Part shown: positions 1,793 to 47,743 of the stretch, piece after piece
Layout: each line of letters begins with the position of its first letter
How positions within the stretch are numbered: position 1 is the stretch's first letter
Assembly: GCA_020718105.1 (NCBI GenBank)
Contig: DYDA01000016.1
Span: 1 to 48,167, forward strand
Origin: Micavibrio sp.
GTDB lineage: Bacteria; Pseudomonadota; Alphaproteobacteria; UBA9219
Direction of reading: 5' to 3'
DNA: 48,167 nt
Notes under the pieces: generated by a model
What the model saw: only the letters and a program-made list of their open reading frames with translations
The model's database searches: none
What the model was told of the DNA's origin: nothing
Program-made: the position numbers and the translations under genes

Positions 1793-3790
1793 TTACTTAT
1801 TTTCTTCCCGTTCAGGAGCCTTGGCTGCCAAGGAATGTTTGATTTGATCGGAAAGAGCCAAAAGCGTGTTTTGCAAAAGAGCCAAGGCCTCTTCTTGCCT
1901 CACGCCAGCTTCCTTCATCTCCTTCTTCTGCAAGGAAACGGCGGCGCGGCGCATCGCCTCAGCCGCCGCTTTAGCCTCTTCTGTTGGCTGCGTCGTTTGA
2001 CTTATGACCTCACGTAAAGCTGCCAGCAAAAGCTGTTGCTGGGCAAGGGTGCGGGTCATGCCCGTCGCCAGTGTTTTACGCTCCGCAACCGAAGCGGGGC
2101 GCATGGTCAGCAAAAATTCGCTTTCTTCATTAAGGCTCTTTTGCCCACGCACCAAAGCGCGAAGCGCTGAAATTTGTTGAGCCAATTGAGCTTGCGCAGG
2201 CGTTAAATCAGGTGGCGTTGTTCTTAGATTTTCAATTTGTTTTTGTAAATGAGCCAAAAGCTCTCGCGCCTCGCTCCCCTTGCCTTTCTTTAACAACGCC
2301 CCAATCTCAATCAATCGATTTTGCAAATCTTCGGGATAGAGCATTTCCTGCGCTGTCGCTAAAGGCCAGTCCATTTCTTGCAGCGCAGGGGGCTGCCGTG
2401 CGCGTTCGTCCTCAAGAACATCGAAATAACGCGTCATCGTTTCCTGCAACCGAAGCCAATGCGTCATGGTCTCATCCGCCATAGGCGCACGCATAAGGGC
2501 CAAAGACAAATCGCGCTCAGCCTCGGCCAAGTCGCTGCGAGCGCGGCCCATATCACCCTCTTCCAACCGCAACGCCGTTTGCCATAACAGCGAGCCTAAA
2601 GACGCTATCGTTTCCGCCGTCGGGGAAAGAACAAGGCGCACAGCGCCAGCGCGAAGCGCCATCATCACAACCTTATCGCCGCGATAAAGCCCTTGCTGCC
2701 GCGCAATGCCCGCCATCACGTTGGCAATCTCATCACGCAAAGACGCATCGGGTTGCCCCAACAGCTTTTGCCGTTCTTCAATAAGAGCCCGCGCAAAGGG
2801 ATTGCGGAACGTGCGCGTCGGCAGCACCAAAACTTTGGGCAGACTGGTAGCCCTGTTGCCCGCGCCATCCGTCGCAATAAGCTGAACCGTGACGGGAAGC
2901 CCCGCCCACGGCAACGCGGTTAAATCAACATAGCCAGCGCTTTTGATTTGTTGGGAAGCCGGTTGTTCCAAAGGAATCTCAACAGGCTCCGTCGTCACGC
3001 CTTTTTGCGCCGTTGTGGGCAACACGCGAACAGAGACCGTTTCAACCCCATAATCATCCTGCGCCTCATACGCAAAACGAATGGATTTGCGCACCGTCAA
3101 CTCTGGCACCTCGGTTAAGCTGATTTGAGGCGGAGCATCGGGCATAACTTCAATCACCCAAAGCCCCAAACGCATCCAGCCACGGCGCAAAAACAGATGA
3201 AGGTCTTTTCTTTGTGATGCTAACGGGACAACAAAAGTCTTGCCGCCTCCCCCTTCTCCCGCAACATCCAACTTTTCTTCCTTGCCATTAAAATGGACGG
3301 TTAGTCCCTCTGGCTCGCCTTGCCAGCTGATCTGAAGCAAGCTTCCCTCCAGCACCGATGCAGGCGCTCCCCTTTCTCTTAAAGGCGCCGCAGGCACACG
3401 GGTATAAGAAGGCGGCGTAACCCACGCCTTAGCCTCTGGCGAGGCAAGGCCTCCCCAACAAGCGCCTAACGCTATCAACGCGGCAATAGGAAGAAAAAAA
3501 CGAAGGTGGGCGCGATGAGACCAAAACCCTAAAGCGCCCCGCACCGCCTGCACAACCCAAATCAACCAAAGCGTCGCCGCCAGCCCATGCAACGGAAGAT
3601 AAAGAAAAGAAAAGAAGCCTAAAAACCAAAACAGCCCATAAACAGCCAGCATAAGAACCGGCACGACAAGCGCGCGCAAGATATCGCCGCGCCATGTTTG
3701 TTGCGCGGCAAGGCCACCATACAAATGCGCCAAGCGGTTCCGCCGTGAGGCCATAAATTTACGAAACTTTTTTCGATTGTTACGCGGCAC
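1793..3790 (-). CDS. TIGR02302 / DUF4175 family membrane protein
   Basis: A 665-residue protein of the alphaproteobacterial TIGR02302 (DUF4175) family. Two or three membrane segments occupy about residues 40-115. A periplasmic beta-rich part follows (PPSYTRVPAAPL, DDYGVETVSVRV), then a long helical, Gln- and Glu-rich C-terminal half with coiled-coil character. Members are often about 800-900 residues; this one is shorter because it lacks a long C-terminal low-complexity region. Function is unknown, but the family is regularly placed after lysA, as here: its GTG start overlaps the last 11 bases of lysA, so the two are probably translationally coupled. The start at 3790 lacks a strong ribosome site; ATG at 3754 is an alternative. 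Confidence 0.85.
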   Translation of the reverse strand: MPRNNRKKFRKFMASRRNRLAHLYGGLAAQQTWRGDILRALVVPVLMLAVYGLFWFLGFFSFLYLPLHGLAATLWLIWVVQAVRGALGFWSHRAHLRFFLPIAALIALGACWGGLASPEAKAWVTPPSYTRVPAAPLRERGAPASVLEGSLLQISWQGEPEGLTVHFNGKEEKLDVAGEGGGGKTFVVPLASQRKDLHLFLRRGWMRLGLWVIEVMPDAPPQISLTEVPELTVRKSIRFAYEAQDDYGVETVSVRVLPTTAQKGVTTEPVEIPLEQPASQQIKSAGYVDLTALPWAGLPVTVQLIATDGAGNRATSLPKVLVLPTRTFRNPFARALIEERQKLLGQPDASLRDEIANVMAGIARQQGLYRGDKVVMMALRAGAVRLVLSPTAETIASLGSLLWQTALRLEEGDMGRARSDLAEAERDLSLALMRAPMADETMTHWLRLQETMTRYFDVLEDERARQPPALQEMDWPLATAQEMLYPEDLQNRLIEIGALLKKGKGSEARELLAHLQKQIENLRTTPPDLTPAQAQLAQQISALRALVRGQKSLNEESEFLLTMRPASVAERKTLATGMTRTLAQQQLLLAALREVISQTTQPTEEAKAAAEAMRRAAVSLQKKEMKEAGVRQEEALALLQNTLLALSDQIKHSLAAKAPEREENK

Positions 3791-5063
3791 GAGGAATCAC
3801 CATCCAATCGGGGATAGACTCCCACCCCATTTGCTCGGCGACGGGAATGCGGCGACGGATCACAGCGTGCCTTGCGCCTGAGACAAGAATCTCTGGAATC
3901 AAAGGGCGGCCATTATAAGTTGACGACATCGCGCTGGCATACGCGCCCGCTTGCATGATGGCCAGCAAATCACCCGCCTTTAATTGATCGGGTAACATAA
4001 AGTGATCACCAAAAGAATCGCTGGTTTCGCAAACAGGCCCAACAACAGACGCGGACATTGTTAGCCCGCCCGTGTCTTGACGCACGCTAAGAATCTCATG
4101 CCGTGCGCCGTACATAGCAGGGCGCACCAAATCATTCATGCCCGCATCCACGACGACAAAGGTTTTACCTTCTGTTTCTTTAACATGAACGATGCGCGTG
4201 ACCAACACAGCGGCATCACCGACCAACTTGCGTCCCGGTTCAAACGACAACGCACATCCAAGAGAACCAAAAATAGAGCGCACCATCGAGGCATAATCAG
4301 CAAAAGGGGCCAGCGTTTGCCCGTCATAAGGTATGCCAACACCGCCGCCAAGATCCAACCTCTCAACCTCAATGCCCTGCGCGCGTAAAAGACCAACAAC
4401 ATCCGCCAAGCGTTGGTAAGCCAAACGGAACGGCTCATAATCTTTAAGCATCGAGCCGACATGCATCGTCAGCCCCTTAAACACGCAATGCGGGCTTGCC
4501 AGCAAAAGCGCCAAAGCCTCCCCCAATTGATCAAGACTGATTCCAAACTTGACGCCCTTATGCCCCGTCGAGATTTTAGCGTGCGTTTTAGCGTCAACGT
4601 CCGGATTAATTCTAAGCGATACAGGGGCTTTCTTGCCCAAAGCGCCCGCCACTTGATCAATCAGACGAATCTCGGACAACGATTCCGCATTCATTTGCAA
4701 AATGCCACCCAACAGCGCCGCAGCGATATCGTCACGCGTTTTACCAACGCCAGAAAAAACGATCTTTTCGGGAAGTACGCCCCCCGCCAAAGCACGCTCC
4801 AACTCTCCCACTGATGTGATGTCCGCCCCTGCGCCACATTCCGCCAGAATACGAATAACCGCCAAATTGGAGTTCGCTTTTACCGCATAATGAACCGTAG
4901 CGTTTAAATCCGCAAAAGGCTTGGCAAACAAGCGATAGTTACGCTGCAATTGCTTGGCGCTAACGCAATAAAAAGGTGTGTCCACCTCCTCGGCAATTTC
5001 CGCTAAAGGAAGCGCCTCAGCACATAAAACACCATTGCGATAGGCGTACACTGATTTTGTCAT
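3780..5063 (-). CDS. lysA: Diaminopimelate decarboxylase
   Basis: Converts meso-diaminopimelate to L-lysine and CO2, the last step of lysine synthesis, in the cytoplasm with PLP. The 427-residue length is normal. The PLP lysine is in VHYAVKANSN (K62). The glycine loop DLGGGVGIPYDG and the motif FEPGRKLVGDA bind the cofactor phosphate. The dimer-partner motif PVCETSDSFG supplies the catalytic cysteine, and AGAYASAMSSTYNGRP is the C-terminal signature. Its ATG overlaps the stop of the upstream small lipoprotein gene (ATGA), and its end overlaps the DUF4175 start, so the three form one operon. In many alphaproteobacteria argH precedes this set; it is absent here. Confidence 0.97.
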   Translation of the reverse strand: MTKSVYAYRNGVLCAEALPLAEIAEEVDTPFYCVSAKQLQRNYRLFAKPFADLNATVHYAVKANSNLAVIRILAECGAGADITSVGELERALAGGVLPEKIVFSGVGKTRDDIAAALLGGILQMNAESLSEIRLIDQVAGALGKKAPVSLRINPDVDAKTHAKISTGHKGVKFGISLDQLGEALALLLASPHCVFKGLTMHVGSMLKDYEPFRLAYQRLADVVGLLRAQGIEVERLDLGGGVGIPYDGQTLAPFADYASMVRSIFGSLGCALSFEPGRKLVGDAAVLVTRIVHVKETEGKTFVVVDAGMNDLVRPAMYGARHEILSVRQDTGGLTMSASVVGPVCETSDSFGDHFMLPDQLKAGDLLAIMQAGAYASAMSSTYNGRPLIPEILVSGARHAVIRRRIPVAEQMGWESIPDWMVIPRAA

Positions 5064-39795: not shown

Positions 39796-41028
39796 ATGAA
39801 CGATGGCTCTTTCTCTCTTTCTCATCGCCGCCTTCTGCTGATCATCTCTGGCGGCATCGCGGCCTATAAAAGCCTTGACCTCATTCGCCGCTTGAGAGAA
39901 CGCGGGGCGCAAGTGCGCTGCGTCCTGACCTCTGGCGGGGCGCAATTTATCACGCCGCTGTCCGTCGCGGCTCTATCGGGCGAGCCTCCCCTCACACAGC
40001 TTTTCAGCGCTGAAAACGAACAGCAGTTTGGCCACATCCGCCTCTCGCGTGAAGCAGATTTGATCGTCGTCGCGCCAGCCTCGGCCAACATGATCGCCAA
40101 GATGGCGCACGGCCTTGCGGATAATTTGGCCAGCGCCGTTTTGCTGGCGGCAACAGATAAACCGGTCATGATCGCCCCCGCGATGAATGGGCGAATGTGG
40201 GAGCATCCCGCCACGCAAGCGAATATGGCCACGCTGGCCTCTCGCGGCATTATGAAAATCGGCCCCGCACGTGGCGCGCTGGCCTGCGGTGAGGAAGGCG
40301 CAGGCCGCATGAGCGAGGTTGACGCGATCCTGTCCGCCATTGAATCTTTTTTTGCGCAGAACGCGCCGTTGCAAGGCCATCGCGCTCTTGTCACCAGCGG
40401 CCCGACGTTTGAGCCAATGGATCCCGTGCGTTTTATCGGCAATCGCTCATCTGGCAAGCAAGGTCATGCGATTGCCGCCGCGCTGGCAGCGGCTGGGGCG
40501 GATGTCACGCTGGTGACAGGCCCCACGGCTCTGCCCGAACCCCTTGGCGTTCGCGTCATCCCCATTGAAACGGCAAAAGAAATGTTGGCGGCATGTAAAA
40601 GCGCCTTGCCTTGCGACATTGTCGTTTGCGCGGCTGCCGTTGCTGATTGGAGGCCCAAAACGCAAAGCACTTTCAAGATAAAAAAGAACGGCGGCCACGC
40701 CGCCCCGCCCCTCACAATGACCGAAAACCCCGATATTCTGGCCACGCTTTCACAAAAGGGCAAGAGTCGCCCCAAGCTGGTCATTGGCTTTGCGGCAGAA
40801 ACGGACGCCGTGATCGATAACGCCAAAGCAAAGTTCGCCCGCAAAGGCTGCGATTGGATCCTTGCCAATCAAGTTGGAGGCGGCAAAGGCTTTGGAGCCG
40901 AGGAAAACAGTGTGACCCTCCTGCGCCGCGAGGCTAAGGGAACGATCAGCGCCCAAGCATGGCCAACCCTTTCCAAAACCGCCATCGCCCAAAAACTGGT
41001 AGAAGAAATTGTGAAGAAAAAAGGTTAA
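39796..41028 (+). CDS. coaBC: Bifunctional phosphopantothenoylcysteine decarboxylase/synthase
   Basis: Carries out two steps of coenzyme A synthesis: ligation of cysteine to phosphopantothenate (CoaB) and FMN-dependent decarboxylation (CoaC). CoaC occupies about residues 10-185, with GGIAAYKSLDLI, the active-site histidine in FGHIRLSREAD, PAMNGRMWEHPA and the cysteine in ACGEEGAGRM. CoaB follows with GPTFEPMDPVRFIGNRSSGK and the nucleotide-binding lysine region FKIKKNGG. Full length at 410 residues. GAGGGA precedes the ATG. In many relatives dut follows; here two tRNA genes do. Confidence 0.96.
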   Translation: MNDGSFSLSHRRLLLIISGGIAAYKSLDLIRRLRERGAQVRCVLTSGGAQFITPLSVAALSGEPPLTQLFSAENEQQFGHIRLSREADLIVVAPASANMIAKMAHGLADNLASAVLLAATDKPVMIAPAMNGRMWEHPATQANMATLASRGIMKIGPARGALACGEEGAGRMSEVDAILSAIESFFAQNAPLQGHRALVTSGPTFEPMDPVRFIGNRSSGKQGHAIAAALAAAGADVTLVTGPTALPEPLGVRVIPIETAKEMLAACKSALPCDIVVCAAAVADWRPKTQSTFKIKKNGGHAAPPLTMTENPDILATLSQKGKSRPKLVIGFAAETDAVIDNAKAKFARKGCDWILANQVGGGKGFGAEENSVTLLRREAKGTISAQAWPTLSKTAIAQKLVEEIVKKKG

Positions 41029-41194: not shown

Positions 41195-41269
41195 TGGGGC
41201 GTCGCCAAGCGGTAAGGCAGTGGATTTTGATTCCACCATGCGGAGGTTCGATCCCTCCCGCCCCAACCA
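41195..41269 (+). tRNA. tRNA-Gln (anticodon UUG)
   Basis: A 75-nt cloverleaf. The acceptor stem TGGGGCG pairs with CGCCCCA, the anticodon arm GTGGA-TTTTGAT-TCCAC has anticodon TTG, the T-loop is TTCGATC, and CCA is encoded. Its 3' end is duplicated 86 bp downstream. Confidence 0.96.
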
Positions 41270-41360
41270 TCTCTTTTCATCCGCCTTCCTTTTATATCTT
41301 GCGCTGTTGCGCCGCTTCGCGGCTCACAGACGCGGGATCCCTCCCGCCCCAACCATCTCT
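41250..41360 (+). repeat. 25-bp direct repeat of the tRNA-Gln 3' end
   Basis: Positions 41250-41274 (T-arm, acceptor 3' strand, CCA and five flanking bases) are repeated exactly at 41336-41360. A copied tRNA 3' end is the usual mark of site-specific integration, so this may be an attachment-site pair left after an element was lost, or a simple local duplication. Confidence 0.75.
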
Positions 41361-41496: not shown

Positions 41497-41571
41497 GGGC
41501 GCGTAGCTCAGCGGTAGAGCACTACCTTGACATGGTAGGGGTCACAGGTTCAATCCCTGTCGCGCCCACCA
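41497..41571 (+). tRNA. tRNA-Val (anticodon GAC)
   Basis: A 75-nt cloverleaf with acceptor GGGCGCG pairing with CGCGCCC, anticodon arm CTACC-TTGACAT-GGTAG with anticodon GAC, T-arm CAGGTTCAATCCCTG, and encoded CCA. Its last 47 bases recur at 44615-44661, so it is the left attachment site of the island that follows. Confidence 0.96.
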
Positions 41572-41843
41572 AATGTTTCAAAGACTTAGACCCCATTTTG
41601 TGTGAGCACCTTCGCAAGTATGGGTGCAACCATGGGTGTGACGCCCTTAATTCCAGCGCGGGCGTAGGTGTTATGAAAACCGATCTTGATTTCACTCAAT
41701 GGCGCATTGTGATAAATGACGACATGACGGCAAGTGAGCAGAGATAGCCCTGCGAAACGATCACGAAAATGCATCAACCGTAGTGAAGAAATTACTGGGG
41801 CTCTGGCTTAGATTCAGTCTTCTTCCTCGTTAAATCTCCACCT

Positions 41844-42002
41844 CTAATAATAACCGATTAACCCCGCCGGTATATCTTCATTTAAATCAATGCCTTTTGC
41901 TTCGAAGAGTGAAAAGAAATTATCATTTGCAGATAAGTCCCATGCTGACAAGTATTCATTGGCATTCAGAATCATCTTGTAACTCTTGCAATTTCTGTCC
42001 AT
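41844..42002 (-). CDS. Possible small ORF in the island
   Basis: A 52-codon frame on the minus strand (ATG 42002, alternative ATG 42017). Its product has a natural-looking composition: YLSAWDLSANDNFFSLFEAK followed by an acidic turn and the ending GLIGYY. No ribosome site is evident and I do not recognise it, so it may be a gene remnant or an antisense artefact. The rest of the 486-bp stretch between tRNA-Val and xre (41572-42057) shows only a 24-codon plus-strand frame from the ATG at 41673. Confidence 0.3.
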   Translation of the reverse strand: MDRNCKSYKMILNANEYLSAWDLSANDNFFSLFEAKGIDLNEDIPAGLIGYY

Positions 42003-42057
42003 CTTTATTTTTATCATCGGGGCACACTATGAGCTGAGTTTGTCAGGAAAAGAAGAA

Positions 42058-42480
42058 ATGACGGTTACCACAATTGAAGCGATCCTACCACCCGATAGCA
42101 TCGATATTATCCTAGGAAAAAATCTAAGGTTTATTCGAATGTCCTGCGGACTTTCGCAGCAGGATCTTGGAAGAGCAATCGGCGTTTCCTTTCAACAAAT
42201 TCAAAAATATGAAAATGGGAAGAACAAAATGAGCGGAGCGCGTATGCTCGCCATGGCAAAGCATTTGGACATTCCTATTAATGATTTTTTCCGCAATCTT
42301 GATTATACGACATCAAAAAATGATTTTCCGAAAAATGTTGATAAAACAACCGTGGAGCTCATTTATCTTTTTAATTCTTTGCATAGCCCCCAAACAAAGA
42401 AAGCTCTTATCAATCTAATCAAGGGACAAATCAATAACCAAAACGCGCAGGCTTTCACCACAAGGACACCAGATGATTGA
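42058..42480 (+). CDS. XRE-family transcriptional regulator
   Basis: A 140-residue regulator. The helix-turn-helix lies at about residues 18-72: LGKNLRFIRMSCGLSQQDLG, IGVSFQQIQKYENGKNKMSG. The C-terminal 50 residues are helical (VELIYLFNSLHSPQTKKALI). I start it at ATG 42058 with AGGAAA five bases upstream; the longer frame to 41986 has no ribosome site. Its end overlaps the luxR start by 8 bp, so it is coupled to luxR and probably regulates the cassette. Residues 112-138 resemble the C-terminus of the last cassette gene. Confidence 0.9.
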   Translation: MTVTTIEAILPPDSIDIILGKNLRFIRMSCGLSQQDLGRAIGVSFQQIQKYENGKNKMSGARMLAMAKHLDIPINDFFRNLDYTTSKNDFPKNVDKTTVELIYLFNSLHSPQTKKALINLIKGQINNQNAQAFTTRTPDD

Positions 42481-43249
42481 CATCGGTAGCTTTATAGAGG
42501 ACACGAACGCTGCAAAAACCTCAGAAGAGGTCGTTCGTATTTTTTGTGAAGCGCTGAAGCAACTTGGCTATGATCGATTTTGCTATAGCTTGATTACAGA
42601 TCACCCTTCTCTTGGGCTTAAAGCGGGGCATGGCGTTGCCAGAAATTACTCATCCAGTTGGATGTCCCACTACCTTGACAATGGGTATGAGAAGAAAGAT
42701 CCGGTTCCTCGTTTTTGTTTTGCGACAACAAAGCCTTTCACGTGGGATTGGTTGACGTCAACACAAAATCTCGCACCAATACAACATCGAATAATGAACG
42801 AAGCCAAAGAGGCCCGCCTGCTTGATGGAGCTGCCTTGCCAATATATGGGGCTAATGGTGAGTTAGCTGGCATTGGCATAGCAAGTAGTTTAGGCGGCGT
42901 TAAGCCGGATATAAACTTGCTGAGCAAAATACGCGCCGTAACCCTGCATTTTCACATGGCCTATACGGAGCTGGAGAAAAAGGAGCAAGAGGGCAATACG
43001 TCTATGCCTGTCACTATTCATTTGACCATGCGTGAGAAAGAAATTCTGCTTTGGGCTGCCGAAGGAAAAAGTGATCAAATTATAGCAGACATTATAGGCA
43101 TCTCTTATTCCGGCATTCGTTTTCATATGAATAATGTTTTTAGGAAATTTAATGTTAATGATAGGACGCTCGTAATTGCAAAAGCGATTCGTCATGGTTT
43201 AATCCTCCCCTCCTATGTTGGGATACCTGACAAGGTTGTTAGCTTATAA
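42473..43249 (+). CDS. LuxR-type quorum-sensing regulator
   Basis: A 258-residue acyl-homoserine-lactone receptor and transcription factor. The N-terminal ligand domain keeps all the usual pocket residues: W63, Y67, D76, P77, W91 and G119, the equivalents of W57, Y61, D70, P71, W85 and G113 of TraR. The C-terminal LuxR helix-turn-helix (about 185-245) reads LTMREKEILLWAAEGKSDQI and then ISYSGIRFHMNNVFRKF. The conserved pocket indicates a true ligand-binding receptor, not a solo lacking binding residues. AAGGA is seven bases before the ATG. It sits between xre and luxI. Confidence 0.95.
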   Translation: MIDIGSFIEDTNAAKTSEEVVRIFCEALKQLGYDRFCYSLITDHPSLGLKAGHGVARNYSSSWMSHYLDNGYEKKDPVPRFCFATTKPFTWDWLTSTQNLAPIQHRIMNEAKEARLLDGAALPIYGANGELAGIGIASSLGGVKPDINLLSKIRAVTLHFHMAYTELEKKEQEGNTSMPVTIHLTMREKEILLWAAEGKSDQIIADIIGISYSGIRFHMNNVFRKFNVNDRTLVIAKAIRHGLILPSYVGIPDKVVSL

Positions 43250-43273
43250 ATAACAGCCTGTTCCCTTACTCCT

Positions 43274-43296
43274 CTTCGTAGTTTGTAGCTATGAAG
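43274..43296 (+). promoter_or_regulatory. Imperfect inverted repeat before luxI
   Basis: Arms CTTCGTAG and CTATGAAG (7 of 8 complementary) flank a 7-nt loop and overlap the region just before the luxI ribosome site. It might be an operator or an RNA hairpin that limits luxI translation. It does not match the CTG-N10-CAG lux box. Confidence 0.3.
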
Positions 43297-43305
43297 GAGG
43301 GGAAA

Positions 43306-43944
43306 ATGATCGATTGCGTTTCTATCGACAACTGTCACTTGTTTTCGGGCAATCCCATTCGTGAGCAACATCGCTTGAGATATAGAAGCATCATCGAAAG
43401 GCAGGGCTGGAATGTTCCTACGGTCGATGAAATGGAATATGACCAATATGACAATCCGGCAGCACAATATCTCGTTTGGAGGGATCGTGACGGTCAAGCG
43501 CGCGGTACGTCCAGACTATGCTCAACGGATCGCCCCTATATGCTTAAGGAGATTTTCCCCCACTTGGTCAGCAAGATTAACGTTCCACAGAGCAGCGCGA
43601 TCTGGGAAGGAAGCCGGTTCTGCATAGACCCCTCCTTGCCACCCCAGATGCGCCAACGCATCATGCAAGAGATCATTCTCGGCTATCTCGAATTTAGTCT
43701 CGACAAAGGGATCACGGCTATTATCGGCGTTATGTTCCCCGTCTATTGGCGTAATATTTTTGTAAAAAACGGCTGGGACGTATCATGGATCGGTGAGCCC
43801 TGCGTAAGCGAAGAGGGCCACAAAATCATTGCAGGTTGGCTACCGGTTTCTGAATCTATTCTGAACGCCGTACGAGAAAAGACTGGGATTTATGAGCCCG
43901 TTCTCTCTTACGGACATTCCGCGCCCATTCTTCGTGCTGCTTAA
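43306..43944 (+). CDS. Acyl-homoserine-lactone synthase (LuxI family)
   Basis: A 212-residue autoinducer synthase making an N-acyl-homoserine lactone from SAM and an acyl carrier. The invariant residues are present: R25, W35, D46, D49, R70, E101 and R104 (motifs YDQYDN, GTSRLCSTDRPYML, IWEGSRFCID); the usual Phe between R25 and W35 is Ile29. The start is ATG 43306, five bases after GGAGGGG; the ATG at 43291 would put that site inside the gene. It lies 56 bp after luxR and 15 bp before the small gene. The acyl chain cannot be deduced from sequence. Confidence 0.94.
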   Translation: MIDCVSIDNCHLFSGNPIREQHRLRYRSIIERQGWNVPTVDEMEYDQYDNPAAQYLVWRDRDGQARGTSRLCSTDRPYMLKEIFPHLVSKINVPQSSAIWEGSRFCIDPSLPPQMRQRIMQEIILGYLEFSLDKGITAIIGVMFPVYWRNIFVKNGWDVSWIGEPCVSEEGHKIIAGWLPVSESILNAVREKTGIYEPVLSYGHSAPILRAA

Positions 43945-43959
43945 ACAGGGGGTATTATT

Positions 43960-44295
43960 GTGAACACGAAAAATTCCAATACAGCGGACATCGAAGGCAT
44001 CAGAGCCTCGTTGAGTTACCTGTCTTTTGAAGCTGAGGGAGCTGGCCTTTCCGAGGTTGCTTCCATGCTCCAACAGGCAGCGCAAAGGTGCGACCAGAAA
44101 GAAGCAGAACAAAAGCCAGTCGAAACCCTTGCCGATAGTGAAACGATCAAAGCAATTGACTTCCTTTATCTCTTCTACGGTTCCTCAAGAGAATCCAAGG
44201 AATGCTTCTTGGAATACGTTGATGTCATGTCACAGTGGTTGTCTTTTAAAGTTAGAACCTCCAATGAAAACACCGCTCACGTTATGATGGACTAA
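43960..44295 (+). CDS. Unknown 111-residue protein of the quorum-sensing cassette
   Basis: A GTG-started small cytoplasmic protein I do not recognise. It is preceded by a GGGGG stretch at good spacing and lies 15 bp after luxI, so it is probably in the same operon. The N-terminal half (ASLSYLSFEAEGAGLSEVAS) is helical; the C-terminal part (FLYLFYGSSRESKECFLEY) resembles the helical tail of the XRE protein encoded three genes earlier (LIYLFNSLHSPQTKKALINL). No similarity to the antiactivators TraM or QslA is evident. A role in tuning LuxR or XRE activity is speculative. Confidence 0.75.
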   Translation: MNTKNSNTADIEGIRASLSYLSFEAEGAGLSEVASMLQQAAQRCDQKEAEQKPVETLADSETIKAIDFLYLFYGSSRESKECFLEYVDVMSQWLSFKVRTSNENTAHVMMD

Positions 44296-44614
44296 TGATT
44301 TTGCACGGGATCGGGAACTTGAGGCCGAGCACAAGGATGATTTGAAAATTGGGAAATAGCCGTTTGGATAACCCTGCTTTTTTCTTTTCGACTGTCTTGT
44401 TTCGAAAACAAACAGCCCTATACAGAAACGAGTCATTCCTTTTTGATGGGAACCCTTTGAAGCTATGATCATGGAAGAAGCTGGGCACTCGCTCTTCGAC
44501 CATGGGCAAACCATGTGTCGTTACTATGTGCAAAAAGCGATAAGATTTGACAACGACCAGCAAAAACTGATAAAAACTTCAAAGAAATGGCGCGAAAATT
44601 AGGGTTTGGTGGCT
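44296..44614 (+). other. Decayed DNA at the right end of the island
   Basis: No complete gene. It starts with an open stretch of 23 codons ending at 44359-44361 whose product looks coding (ARDRELEAEHKDDLKIGK). A bulged hairpin near 44391-44414 (CTGTCTTG-loop-CAAACAG type) could terminate the operon. The right half holds the possible integrase remnant at 44465-44602. Confidence 0.4.
44465..44602 (+). pseudogene. Possible tyrosine-recombinase C-terminal remnant
   Basis: A 45-codon frame ending 12 bp before the right attachment repeat. It contains EEAGHSLF, then TMCRYYVQKA and a basic tail (KTSKKWREN). A GH followed by T-x-x-R-Y is the pattern of the last conserved box of tyrosine integrases, though the gap between H and Y is three residues longer than usual. 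No HxxR box is visible upstream in any frame, so if it is an integrase it is heavily decayed. Confidence 0.3.
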
Positions 44615-44661
44615 CCTTGACATGGTAGGGGGCACAGGTTCAATCCCTGTCGCGCCCACCA
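44615..44661 (+). repeat. Partial tRNA-Val copy (right attachment site)
   Basis: These 47 bases copy the anticodon loop to CCA of the tRNA-Val at 41525-41571, with a single T-to-G change in the variable loop region. It lacks the 5' half and cannot make a tRNA. It marks the right edge of the island. Confidence 0.85.
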
Positions 44662-44681: not shown

Positions 44682-45116
44682 ATGCCCTTATCCTGCTTCC
44701 CAACTTGTTTTCTGCGCCATCCCACGACTGTCCAATTCCTAAAGTTCGGGATCATTGGCTTAATCGGCTTTGTTGTCGATACGGCTTTTTTGTATATCGG
44801 GATCGGAGCGCTAGACCTGAGCCGCATCGCCGCGGGCTTTTTCGCCTTTCCCTTTGCCGTCACAGTCACATGGATCGGCAACCGCATCTTCACCTTTCGC
44901 GATCACGCGCATGAGCCTTTGGCCAAGCAATGGATCAAATTTGCTGCCGTATGCGCGGTGGGCATCGTGTTTAATCGCGGCACGTATGCGCTGATGGTCA
45001 GCCTGATTCCCTTGGTTTACGATTATCCCGTACTGGGCCTTTTGGGCGGTACGGCGGTGGGGATGTTCTTTAACTTCTTTGCGTCTAAAAGGCTTGTTTT
45101 TAGAACAACCTCTTGA
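44682..45116 (+). CDS. GtrA family membrane protein
   Basis: A 144-residue protein with four membrane segments of the GtrA/DPMS-like family, thought to flip or present polyprenyl-phosphate sugars for polysaccharide modification. The first segment FLKFGIIGLIGFVVDTAFLY is typical, and WIGNRIFTF with the C-terminal FFNFFASKRLVF are family marks. I start at ATG 44682 with AGGAAG upstream; the longer frame translates the tRNA copy and is spurious. No glycosyltransferase is adjacent. Its stop codon lies within the -35 box of the clpB promoter. Confidence 0.9.
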   Translation: MPLSCFPTCFLRHPTTVQFLKFGIIGLIGFVVDTAFLYIGIGALDLSRIAAGFFAFPFAVTVTWIGNRIFTFRDHAHEPLAKQWIKFAAVCAVGIVFNRGTYALMVSLIPLVYDYPVLGLLGGTAVGMFFNFFASKRLVFRTTS

Positions 45117-45163: not shown

Positions 45164-47743
45164 ATGGATTTTTCAAAATACACCGAGCGAGCGCAGGGCT
45201 TTATGCAAAACGCGCAGATGGAGGCGCTCAAGCATCAGCATCAACGCCTTTTGCCTGAGCATATGCTTAAAGTCCTGATGGACGATGCCGAAGGCATGGC
45301 CGCTGGCCTTATCAAGGCCACGGGCGGCGATGCCAAGCGCGTGAAAGACGCGACGCTTGCGGCGCTTGATTCCCTGCCCAAAGTCTATGCCTCTGGCAAT
45401 GCCGATCAACTTCACCTTTCGGCTGAGTTTGCCCGCGCTTTAGGCGTGGCCGAGGATTTAGCGCACAAAGCGGGCGACAGCTTTGTTACCTCAGAGCGCC
45501 TGTTGCAGTCCCTTTCCCTCGCCACCGGAACAACCGCGCAAAAGATTTTGGCCGAAGCGGGGGTCACGCCCGAAAAACTAAACGCCGCCATCAACGCTCT
45601 TCGCAAGGGGCGCACCGCGGATAGTTCTGGCGCGGAGTCAGGTTATGACGCTTTAAAGAAATATGCGCGTGACCTCACCGCCGCCGCCAAGAACGGCAAG
45701 CTGGATCCCGTCATCGGACGCGATGAAGAAATCCGCCGCGCCGTGCAAGTTCTGGCGCGGCGCACAAAGAACAACCCTGTATTGATCGGTGATCCGGGTG
45801 TGGGCAAGACCGCGATCATCGAAGGCCTCGCACAGCGCATCTTTAAGGGCGACGTGCCAGAAGGCCTCAAAAACAAGCGTGTCCTATCCCTTGATCTTGG
45901 CTCTTTGATTGCGGGCGCGAAGTATCGCGGCGAATTTGAAGAGCGCCTGAAGGCCGTTTTAAGTGAGATTTCCGCCGCTGCGGGTGAGGTTATCATCTTT
46001 ATTGATGAGCTTCATTTGCTGGTCGGTGCAGGTAAAACAGAGGGCGCAATGGACGCCTCGAATATGCTCAAGCCCGCGCTGGCGCGTGGTGAACTTCACT
46101 GCATCGGCGCGACGACGCTGGACGAATACCGCCAGCATATAGAAAAAGATGCCGCCCTCGCCCGCCGCTTTCAACCGATTTTCGTAAGCCAACCGAGCGT
46201 TGGGGACACCATCTCGATCCTGCGCGGCCTGAAGGAAAAGTATGAGCTTCACCACGGCGTGCGCATTACGGACGGCGCGATTGTTGCCGCCGCAACACTG
46301 TCCAACCGCTATATCACCGACCGTTTTCTGCCCGATAAAGCCATCGATTTGATCGATGAAGCGGCGGCGCGTCTGCGCATGGAAGTGGACAGCAAGCCCG
46401 AAGAGATTGACGAAATTGACCGCCGGATTATTCAGCTAAAGATTGAGCAAGCGGCTCTTAAAAAAGAAACCGATGACGCCAGCAAAAGCCGCCTGATCAG
46501 GCTTGACGGCGAACTGGCGGGGTTAGAGGAAGAATCGAGCCGCCTGACCACACGCTGGCAAAACGAAAAAAGCCAACTAACCAGCGCCCAAAAAATCAAA
46601 GAACGAATTGAGGCATCTCGCTCTGAATTGGAAGCCGCACAACGAGCAGGCAACTATACCCGCGCGGGAGAGCTAACCTATAGCGTCATTCCCGATCTTG
46701 AAAAACAACTGGCGGCGGCGCAAAGCCAAGATGAAGGCGCGATGATCAACGAGGTGGTGAAGGACGAAGACATCGCCGCGATTGTCAGCCGCTGGACGGG
46801 TATTCCCGTCGATCGCATGATGCAAGGCGAGCGCGAAAAACTGCTGGCGATGGAAGATCACTTGCGCCGCCGCGTGATCGGTCAGGATGAAGCCGTCATT
46901 GCCGTGTCACACGCCGTGCGACGTGCCCGCGCAGGCCTGCAAGACCCCAACCGGCCAATGGGCTCGTTCCTTTTCTTGGGGCCGACGGGCGTAGGCAAGA
47001 CCGAGCTGACCAAGACTCTGGCCGCCTTTTTGTTCGATGACGAAACGGCCATGCAGCGCATCGATATGTCGGAATACATGGAAAAGCACGCAGTGGCGCG
47101 GCTGATCGGCGCGCCACCGGGGTATGTTGGTTATGAAGAAGGTGGCACGCTGACCGAGGCCGTGCGCCGTCGCCCCTATCAAGTCATTTTGTTTGACGAG
47201 GTGGAAAAGGCTCACCCCGACGTGTTCAACATTTTGTTGCAAGTGCTGGATGATGGCCGCCTGACGGACGGGCAAGGCCGCACCATCGATTTTCGCAACA
47301 CGCTCATCATCCTGACCTCAAACCTTGGCGCTGATCTTATCGCCGCCGATGCGGGCGATGAGCTTGCGCCCGCCACGCGCAGCGAAGTGATGGAAACCGT
47401 CAAGCATCATTTTCGGCCAGAGTTCCTCAACCGCCTTGACGAAATCCTGCTCTTCCGCCGCCTTAGCCGCAAGGATATGACCTCGATTGTCGATGTTCAA
47501 ATCGCGCATCTGCAAAAGCTTTTGGCCGCGCACAACGTCACGCTAAGCGCCCACGCGGACGCGCTGGCATGGCTGGCCGATGCGGGCTATGACCCCATTT
47601 ATGGCGCACGCCCGCTTAAGCGCGTGATCCAACGCGAGATGCAAAACAAACTAGCCGAAGAATTTTTGGCAGGCCGCATTAAAGAAGGCGCTCACGTCAC
47701 CGCCAAAGTCGAAAACGGAAACCTTGTTTTTACGACGGCATGA
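45164..47743 (+). CDS. clpB: Disaggregase chaperone ClpB
   Basis: An 859-residue Hsp100 that works with DnaK to pull proteins out of aggregates. The N-domain covers about residues 1-145. AAA-1 has Walker [14 protein letters not shown] near residue 205 and Walker [15 protein letters not shown]. The coiled-coil M-domain spans about 400-525, and AAA-2 has [15 protein letters not shown] near 605 and Walker [15 protein letters not shown]. Full-length and intact. AAGGAGG precedes the ATG, and the heat-shock promoter directly upstream shows stress induction. It is monocistronic, with terminator-type hairpins downstream. Confidence 0.98.

Follow-up and report, generated by a model that had tools for sequence, protein, structure and literature searches.

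A candidate integrase-less quorum-sensing island at tRNA-Val(GAC) in a Micavibrio draft genome

We analysed a 48,167-nucleotide stretch of DNA from Micavibrio sp., an uncultured alphaproteobacterium (contig DYDA01000016.1, hereafter the window), which is contig C41 of a 1.91-Mb draft genome in 42 contigs, with a completeness of 96% and a contamination estimate of 0.7%. Downstream of its tRNA-Val(GAC) gene the window carries four genes, xre, luxR, luxI and orf4, on a segment that we consider likely to be a horizontally acquired mini-island without an integrase, that is, a cis-mobilizable element (CIME), with a closed quorum-sensing circuit as its cargo and an output through Orf4 and a PraR-type regulator. 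Directly visible in the DNA are the two attachment cores (attL and attR), ends of the element type, the empty site of a relative, a foreign composition and a LuxI close to those of Rhodomicrobium. The anatomy of the island is well supported; its mobility and wiring, as described below, are proposals. Those relatives that bear a name are alphaproteobacterial metagenome-assembled genomes (MAGs), several of them labelled Micavibrio.

Foreign DNA between two copies of a tRNA 3′ end

As the original prediction stated, the 47-bp 3′ end of tRNA-Val is copied again 3.09 kb downstream: the repeats at 41525-41571 and 44615-44661 are direct, 46/47 (98%) identical and spaced by 3090. Between them lies, as it also described, an AT-richer xre-luxR-luxI-orf cassette with all four genes on the + strand. 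The GC content of 41572-44614 is 44.3%, against 52.3 ± 1.65% (minimum 48.3%) in host windows of 3 kb (n=158), and the tetranucleotide correlation with the host is 0.34, against 0.63 ± 0.08 (minimum 0.455) for the host windows. By both measures, which had been proposed as a check, the island falls outside the range of all 158 host windows. An empty tRNA-Val site, the other comparison called for, was found in a genome of the same genus (G004), where tRNA-Val(GAC), gtrA and clpB follow one another without an insert, with a short gap and no repeat, and where the tRNA promoter region is similar. The left neighbouring gene in G004 differs from that of the window, so the established synteny covers no more than the tRNA and the right side. 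Judged by composition and by this empty site, the xre-luxR-luxI-orf4 segment is an inserted foreign element. Its features are as follows.

41497-41571, + strand: tRNA-Val(GAC), insertion target, intact (ARAGORN, Rfam)
41525-41571, + strand: attL core, 47 bp, the tRNA-Val 3′ end (direct repeat; family-wide tRNA-Val repeats)
41572-41591, + strand: left element end AATGTTTCAAAGACTTAGAC, with TCAA at 41578-41581 and TTAG at 41586-41589
42058-42480, + strand: xre, 140 amino acids, PraR/PhrR-like HTH_3 regulator (HTH_3 4e-13)
42473-43249, + strand: luxR, 258 amino acids, autoinducer-binding transcriptional regulator (Autoind_bind 1.4e-27, GerE 6e-14)
43225-43244, + strand: lux-box-like candidate operator ACCTGACAAGGTTGTTAGCT, within the luxR 3′ end (conserved ahead of luxI in Rhodomicrobium)
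43306-43944, + strand: luxI, 212 amino acids, acyl-homoserine-lactone synthase (Autoind_synth 1.5e-30)
43960-44295, + strand: orf4, 111 amino acids, small helical protein of the luxI-downstream family (no Pfam match)
44551-44614, + strand: right element end (gapless alignment to the right end of the tRNA-Val element on contig C262 of G011)
44615-44661, + strand: attR core, 47-bp copy of the tRNA-Val 3′ end (46/47 against attL)

The xre and luxR genes overlap by 8 bp, and an alternative in-frame start of luxI is possible at 43291. The non-coding ends of the island measure 486 bp on the left (41572-42057) and 319 bp on the right (44296-44614). Scans for sigma-70 promoters and terminators returned hits at chance level only.

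A recurrent attachment site and element-type ends

When compared with the whole genome, the tRNA sequence matched only the 98% copy and a second element at tRNA-Val(CAC) on contig C19, where the same 47 bp are repeated 28.8 kb downstream. That element encodes a tyrosine integrase, an HTH_17 candidate excisionase and a relaxase. Nucleotides 29/31-75 of tRNA-Val are repeated in many genomes (31 relatives surveyed), and in G002 and G031 integrases 66-69% identical to the C19 enzyme lie ~40 bp from tRNA-Val. The repeat is therefore an attachment site, with integrases that use it both in the family and in the genome itself. The C19 element (C19:44316-73190; L045, L046) is a 28.8-kb integrative mobilizable element (IME), which also carries large helicase and methylase-like genes (probable restriction-modification), together with one for a LanM-like lanthipeptide enzyme; these last two labels were given by eye from the translations.

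Occupied tRNA-Val sites show TCAA-N4-TTAG at fixed positions directly after the tRNA CCA. In the left end of the island TCAA and TTAG stand in register with ten other tRNA-Val sites, and the signature is not present at the G004 empty site. It was matched 40 times in the 3.1 Mb scanned, roughly one match in 78,000 positions. Of the 11 tRNA-Val genes with the signature, 7 also show independent evidence of an element, versus 1 of ~14 without it (Fisher p 0.007), in a tally scored by hand. At the right end, the 64 bp inside attR align gap-free to the G011 C262 element, with 84/112 positions identical when the core is included.

The absence of an intact integrase, noted in the original prediction, extends to remnants: none was found in the non-coding ends by tblastn against all collected elements or by Pfam and PHROGs searches. 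Gene calls and family searches detected no integrase, excisionase, relaxase, or conjugation or mobilization genes in 41572-44614. Because both ends resemble those of integrase-bearing elements, attL and attR are kept and there is no integrase or transfer gene, the island fits the definition of a CIME (PMC5704250); autonomous relatives occupy the same site, and a relative has it empty. Like CIMEs in general and the integrase-less ssrA islands of Dehalococcoides given as an example (PMC3146451), it keeps attL and attR without integration or transfer genes; such elements are found next to integrase-bearing ones of equal site specificity and in tandem accretions. The island differs from them in that a quorum-sensing operon is the sole cargo, the target is tRNA-Val and the kindred integrases are tyrosine recombinases. 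A tyrosine integrase with specificity for tRNA-Val, for instance the enzyme of the C19 element, could excise or move the island in trans. Elements of the ICEMlSym type, whether integrative conjugative elements (ICEs) or IMEs, carry their own integrase, excisionase and conjugation or mobilization genes, unlike 41572-44614.

The original prediction called a whole quorum-sensing circuit as the sole cargo of an integrase-less tRNA element unusual. Integrase-less islands as such are not rare at tRNA-Val in the family (G007, G017). The combination of a CIME with quorum-sensing-only cargo, a built-in Xre and a probable anti-repressor was not found in the literature searched, which is not proof of its being unreported. 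The island in G007 (L191 1648-3639) is ~1.9 kb long, has a 27-bp exact att copy and encodes AbiEii and an AbiEi-like protein (DUF6088). In G017 (L192 1660-17595) 15.9 kb lie between two tRNA-Val 3′ ends, with leucine-pathway-like genes (a label given by eye from the translations) and others, and no C19-type integrase.

A LuxI-LuxR circuit of Rhodomicrobium affinity

LuxI (Autoind_synth) and LuxR (Autoind_bind and GerE) score above the curated cut-offs, and each matches solved homologues. Among the residues conserved in synthases, LuxI retains R25, W35, D46, D49, R70, F84, E101 and R104, and for these eight expected positions the claim that key residues are kept is borne out. The nearest LuxI proteins, 63-65% identical, come from Rhodomicrobium and a Hyphomicrobiales MAG, whereas the LuxI proteins of the host family itself reach at most 46%. 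In the LuxI tree the window groups with Rhodomicrobium and the Hyphomicrobiales MAG (support 99/93), and the rows of the host order need at least 5 changes on the starred branches. LuxI is present in 12 of the 59 genomes searched, the window's own among them; the other LuxI of the genus, in G004, is only 28% identical to that of the island. A search of the host genome found no LuxI or Autoind_bind protein besides the one of each in the island. On this tree the ancestry of LuxI is near Rhodomicrobium and the cargo is horizontally acquired; a phylogeny and composition like those of the core genome, named beforehand as speaking against an island, were not observed.

Both the window and the two Rhodomicrobium loci (L058, L059) carry the 20-bp element ACCTGNCAAGGTTGYTAGCT ~60 bp ahead of luxI; the Hyphomicrobiales MAG has it with 2 mismatches. 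It lies inside the 3′ end of luxR in the window and outside luxR, in non-coding DNA, in Rhodomicrobium. Since it is coding here but non-coding there, the conservation is one of the DNA sequence, and 43225-43244 is a lux-box-like candidate for the LuxR operator. A genome-wide search allowing up to 3 mismatches gave no second lux-box-like site.

In the proposed circuit, LuxI would make an acyl-homoserine-lactone, and LuxR with its signal would act at the 43225 box to activate the luxI-orf4 operon. The circuit looks functional, and signalling might be gained or lost with the island in one step. Should this box be the LuxR operator, the circuit feeds back only on itself and has to reach host genes in some other way.

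The Rhodomicrobium luxR-luxI-orf4 loci share the closest LuxI (65%), the same operator and an Orf4 45-47% identical to that of the island, with no xre detected beside the genes and no tRNA near within the stretch examined. The cassettes of Asticcacaulis pASEM-1, Magnetospirillum and the marine MAG RS_4_32 (L060) share the gene order and families (xre-luxR-luxI-orf), with no tRNA att repeats seen and LuxI proteins 38-55% identical to the island's. A single-protein query found no relatives of the cassette in viral contigs. We found no tRNA 3′ copies at other lux loci near tRNAs (L056, L063, L071, L084), so these are not established as tRNA islands. In one of them (L056 9255-10251, G029), luxI starts just 3′ of tRNA-Gly and is interrupted by a frameshift, which reflects either decay or an error of sequencing. 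At L055 9484-16087 (G017), luxR-luxI-orf4, 2-oxoacid dehydrogenase-like genes and a PraR-like xre lie between direct repeats of 132 bp (97%), which encode integrase-like C-termini, and the locus adjoins a 5′ tRNA half whose anticodon loop has CAT. At L054 5565-9438 (G006), a tyrosine integrase-like gene lies directly upstream of luxI, followed by a ribbon-helix-helix-like small gene and a reversed luxR.

Xre, Orf4 and a possible route to host genes

The genes listed originally as 'xre' and 'orf' seem to encode a PraR-type regulator and a small protein in the position of CinS and MmaP, part of a known regulatory layout. CinS of Rhizobium and MmaP of Methylobacterium, small proteins encoded downstream of luxI, bind the Xre regulator PraR (PMC4149787, PMC10790750). 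The island Xre is PraR-like (HTH_3), and the host genome has a second PraR-like Xre gene at C4:77459-77872 (L219), upstream of a metK-like gene; PraR genes beside metK are a reported neighbourhood (PMC10790750). The orf4 gene is co-directional with luxI across a 15-bp gap. In most close loci a member of its family immediately follows luxI, and a separate search for the family in 289 genomes gave 11 other places, 8 of which adjoin luxI or luxR. The structural model of Orf4 is all-helical (predicted local distance difference score, pLDDT, 79; predicted template modelling score, pTM, 0.44). From its position, size, family association and partner, Orf4 is probably an anti-repressor in the CinS/MmaP position. 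That Orf4 mimics the C-terminal part of Xre, first suggested by eye, was dropped after BLASTP and profile-profile comparison gave nothing.

Orf4 may thereby offer a route from the closed circuit to host genes: it would bind a PraR-type Xre repressor, either the island's own or the metK-adjacent host homologue on C4, and by lifting Xre repression would pass cell density on to host genes. The cinR-cinI-cinS system of Rhizobium leguminosarum and the mmaR-mmaI-mmaP system of Methylobacterium likewise have luxR, luxI and a small gene directly downstream, a PraR-family Xre partner, and a host PraR homologue beside metK. In contrast to them, the island has a second PraR-like gene in the operon ahead of luxR, and the unit is on a putatively mobile island. 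Orf4, at 111 amino acids, has an extra C-terminal helical part as compared with MmaP (59 amino acids).

Alternative explanations

Several results weigh against the CIME with an Orf4-PraR output. The signature TCAA-N4-TTAG also follows several attR copies and occurs at a G014 site that has no other element evidence, so it may belong to the att site instead of the element; after attR copies it may reflect tandem accretion or be part of the att site. The palindrome TTACAGCTGTAA, found inside several integrase-bearing elements, is missing from the left end of the island. Residue 29 of LuxI is Ile; in many synthases the first conserved Phe stands at this position. Lux boxes can be degenerate, so the single box is a lower bound. 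A fold search with the Orf4 model gave no match below E 1, and profile comparison of Orf4 with the Xre family gave no match.

The island could instead be an immobile relic of a larger IME that lost its integrase and mobilization genes, no longer moves, and has its quorum-sensing genes kept by selection or not yet decayed. We regard this as a real possibility, short of probable: the lack of an integrase, excisionase or relaxase inside the island, its long non-coding ends (41572-42057, 44296-44614) and the one-base difference between the att cores agree with it, but both cores and both ends still resemble those of integrase-bearing elements, and the genome encodes a related integrase. It seems unlikely that the circuit serves the mobile elements instead of the host, setting the time at which a co-resident tRNA-Val element is excised or transferred, in the manner of TraR-TraI in Mesorhizobium symbiosis elements. 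Transfer of ICEMlSym-type elements is under quorum-sensing control according to the literature, and on an Asticcacaulis plasmid the same cassette neighbours a gene whose annotation is conjugal transfer protein TraG; the island, however, has no transfer genes, and no second operator copy (up to 3 mismatches) occurs in the genome, hence none on C19. On that plasmid (pASEM-1 of Asticcacaulis excentricus, L211), the cassette adjoining the TraG-annotated gene reads xre-luxR-luxI-small gene.

Joining of another organism's DNA at the tRNA-Val repeat by chimeric metagenome assembly would account for the foreign composition of the segment in a draft of 42 contigs. This is very improbable given that the repeat copies differ at one base, leaving a longest exact shared stretch of <31 bp, that the flanks are the syntenic tRNA-Val and gtrA-clpB seen in G004, and that the contamination estimate is low. 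Native lux genes beside a tRNA with a chance 3′-end duplication are hardly credible at all: tRNA 3′ ends have undergone small duplications here, as at tRNA-Gln (41250/41336), but composition, phylogeny, the empty site, the end signatures and the recurrent use of the same 45-47 bp all speak against them.

Returning to the CIME, we tentatively suggest, as a rather doubtful extension, that it is a plug-in passenger, moved in trans by resident tRNA-Val integrases, whose LuxR acts on a single operator in the genome, the passenger's own, and which affects the host through an anti-repressor that captures the conserved host PraR. If this is true, a single recombination event would let cell density feed into a regulon that a strain without acyl-homoserine-lactone signalling already has. 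Horizontal transfer, in general terms, is the usual explanation for the patchy distribution of LuxI and LuxR systems. In the present case the ends of the transferred unit can be seen, its site is known, there are candidates for the enzymes that move it, and an empty counterpart exists; its content is a sensor, a synthase, an operator, a repressor and a probable anti-repressor and nothing else; each component is of a known kind. Two questions can thereby be put to the test: does quorum sensing spread as a minimal passenger, and by what means does a newly arrived circuit acquire an output in a host without genes wired to its LuxR?

Flanking genes and minor observations

The island is flanked by the following genes.

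39796-41028, + strand: coaBC, left flank, core gene
44691-45116, + strand: gtrA, right flank (directly after tRNA-Val in G004)
45164-47743, + strand: clpB, right flank, core gene

A hairpin-rich unit (TTGCGCTGTTGCGC, GCTTCGC, GCTCACAGA) follows tRNA-Gln in the window (41195-41360) and also the attR of the C19 element (L046:13144-13280). At both places the unit is followed by a second copy of the 3′ end of the preceding tRNA, Gln in the window and Val at C19. In G005 (L197 near 3700-4141) the hairpin-rich unit is present in three tandem copies near a tRNA-Val copy.

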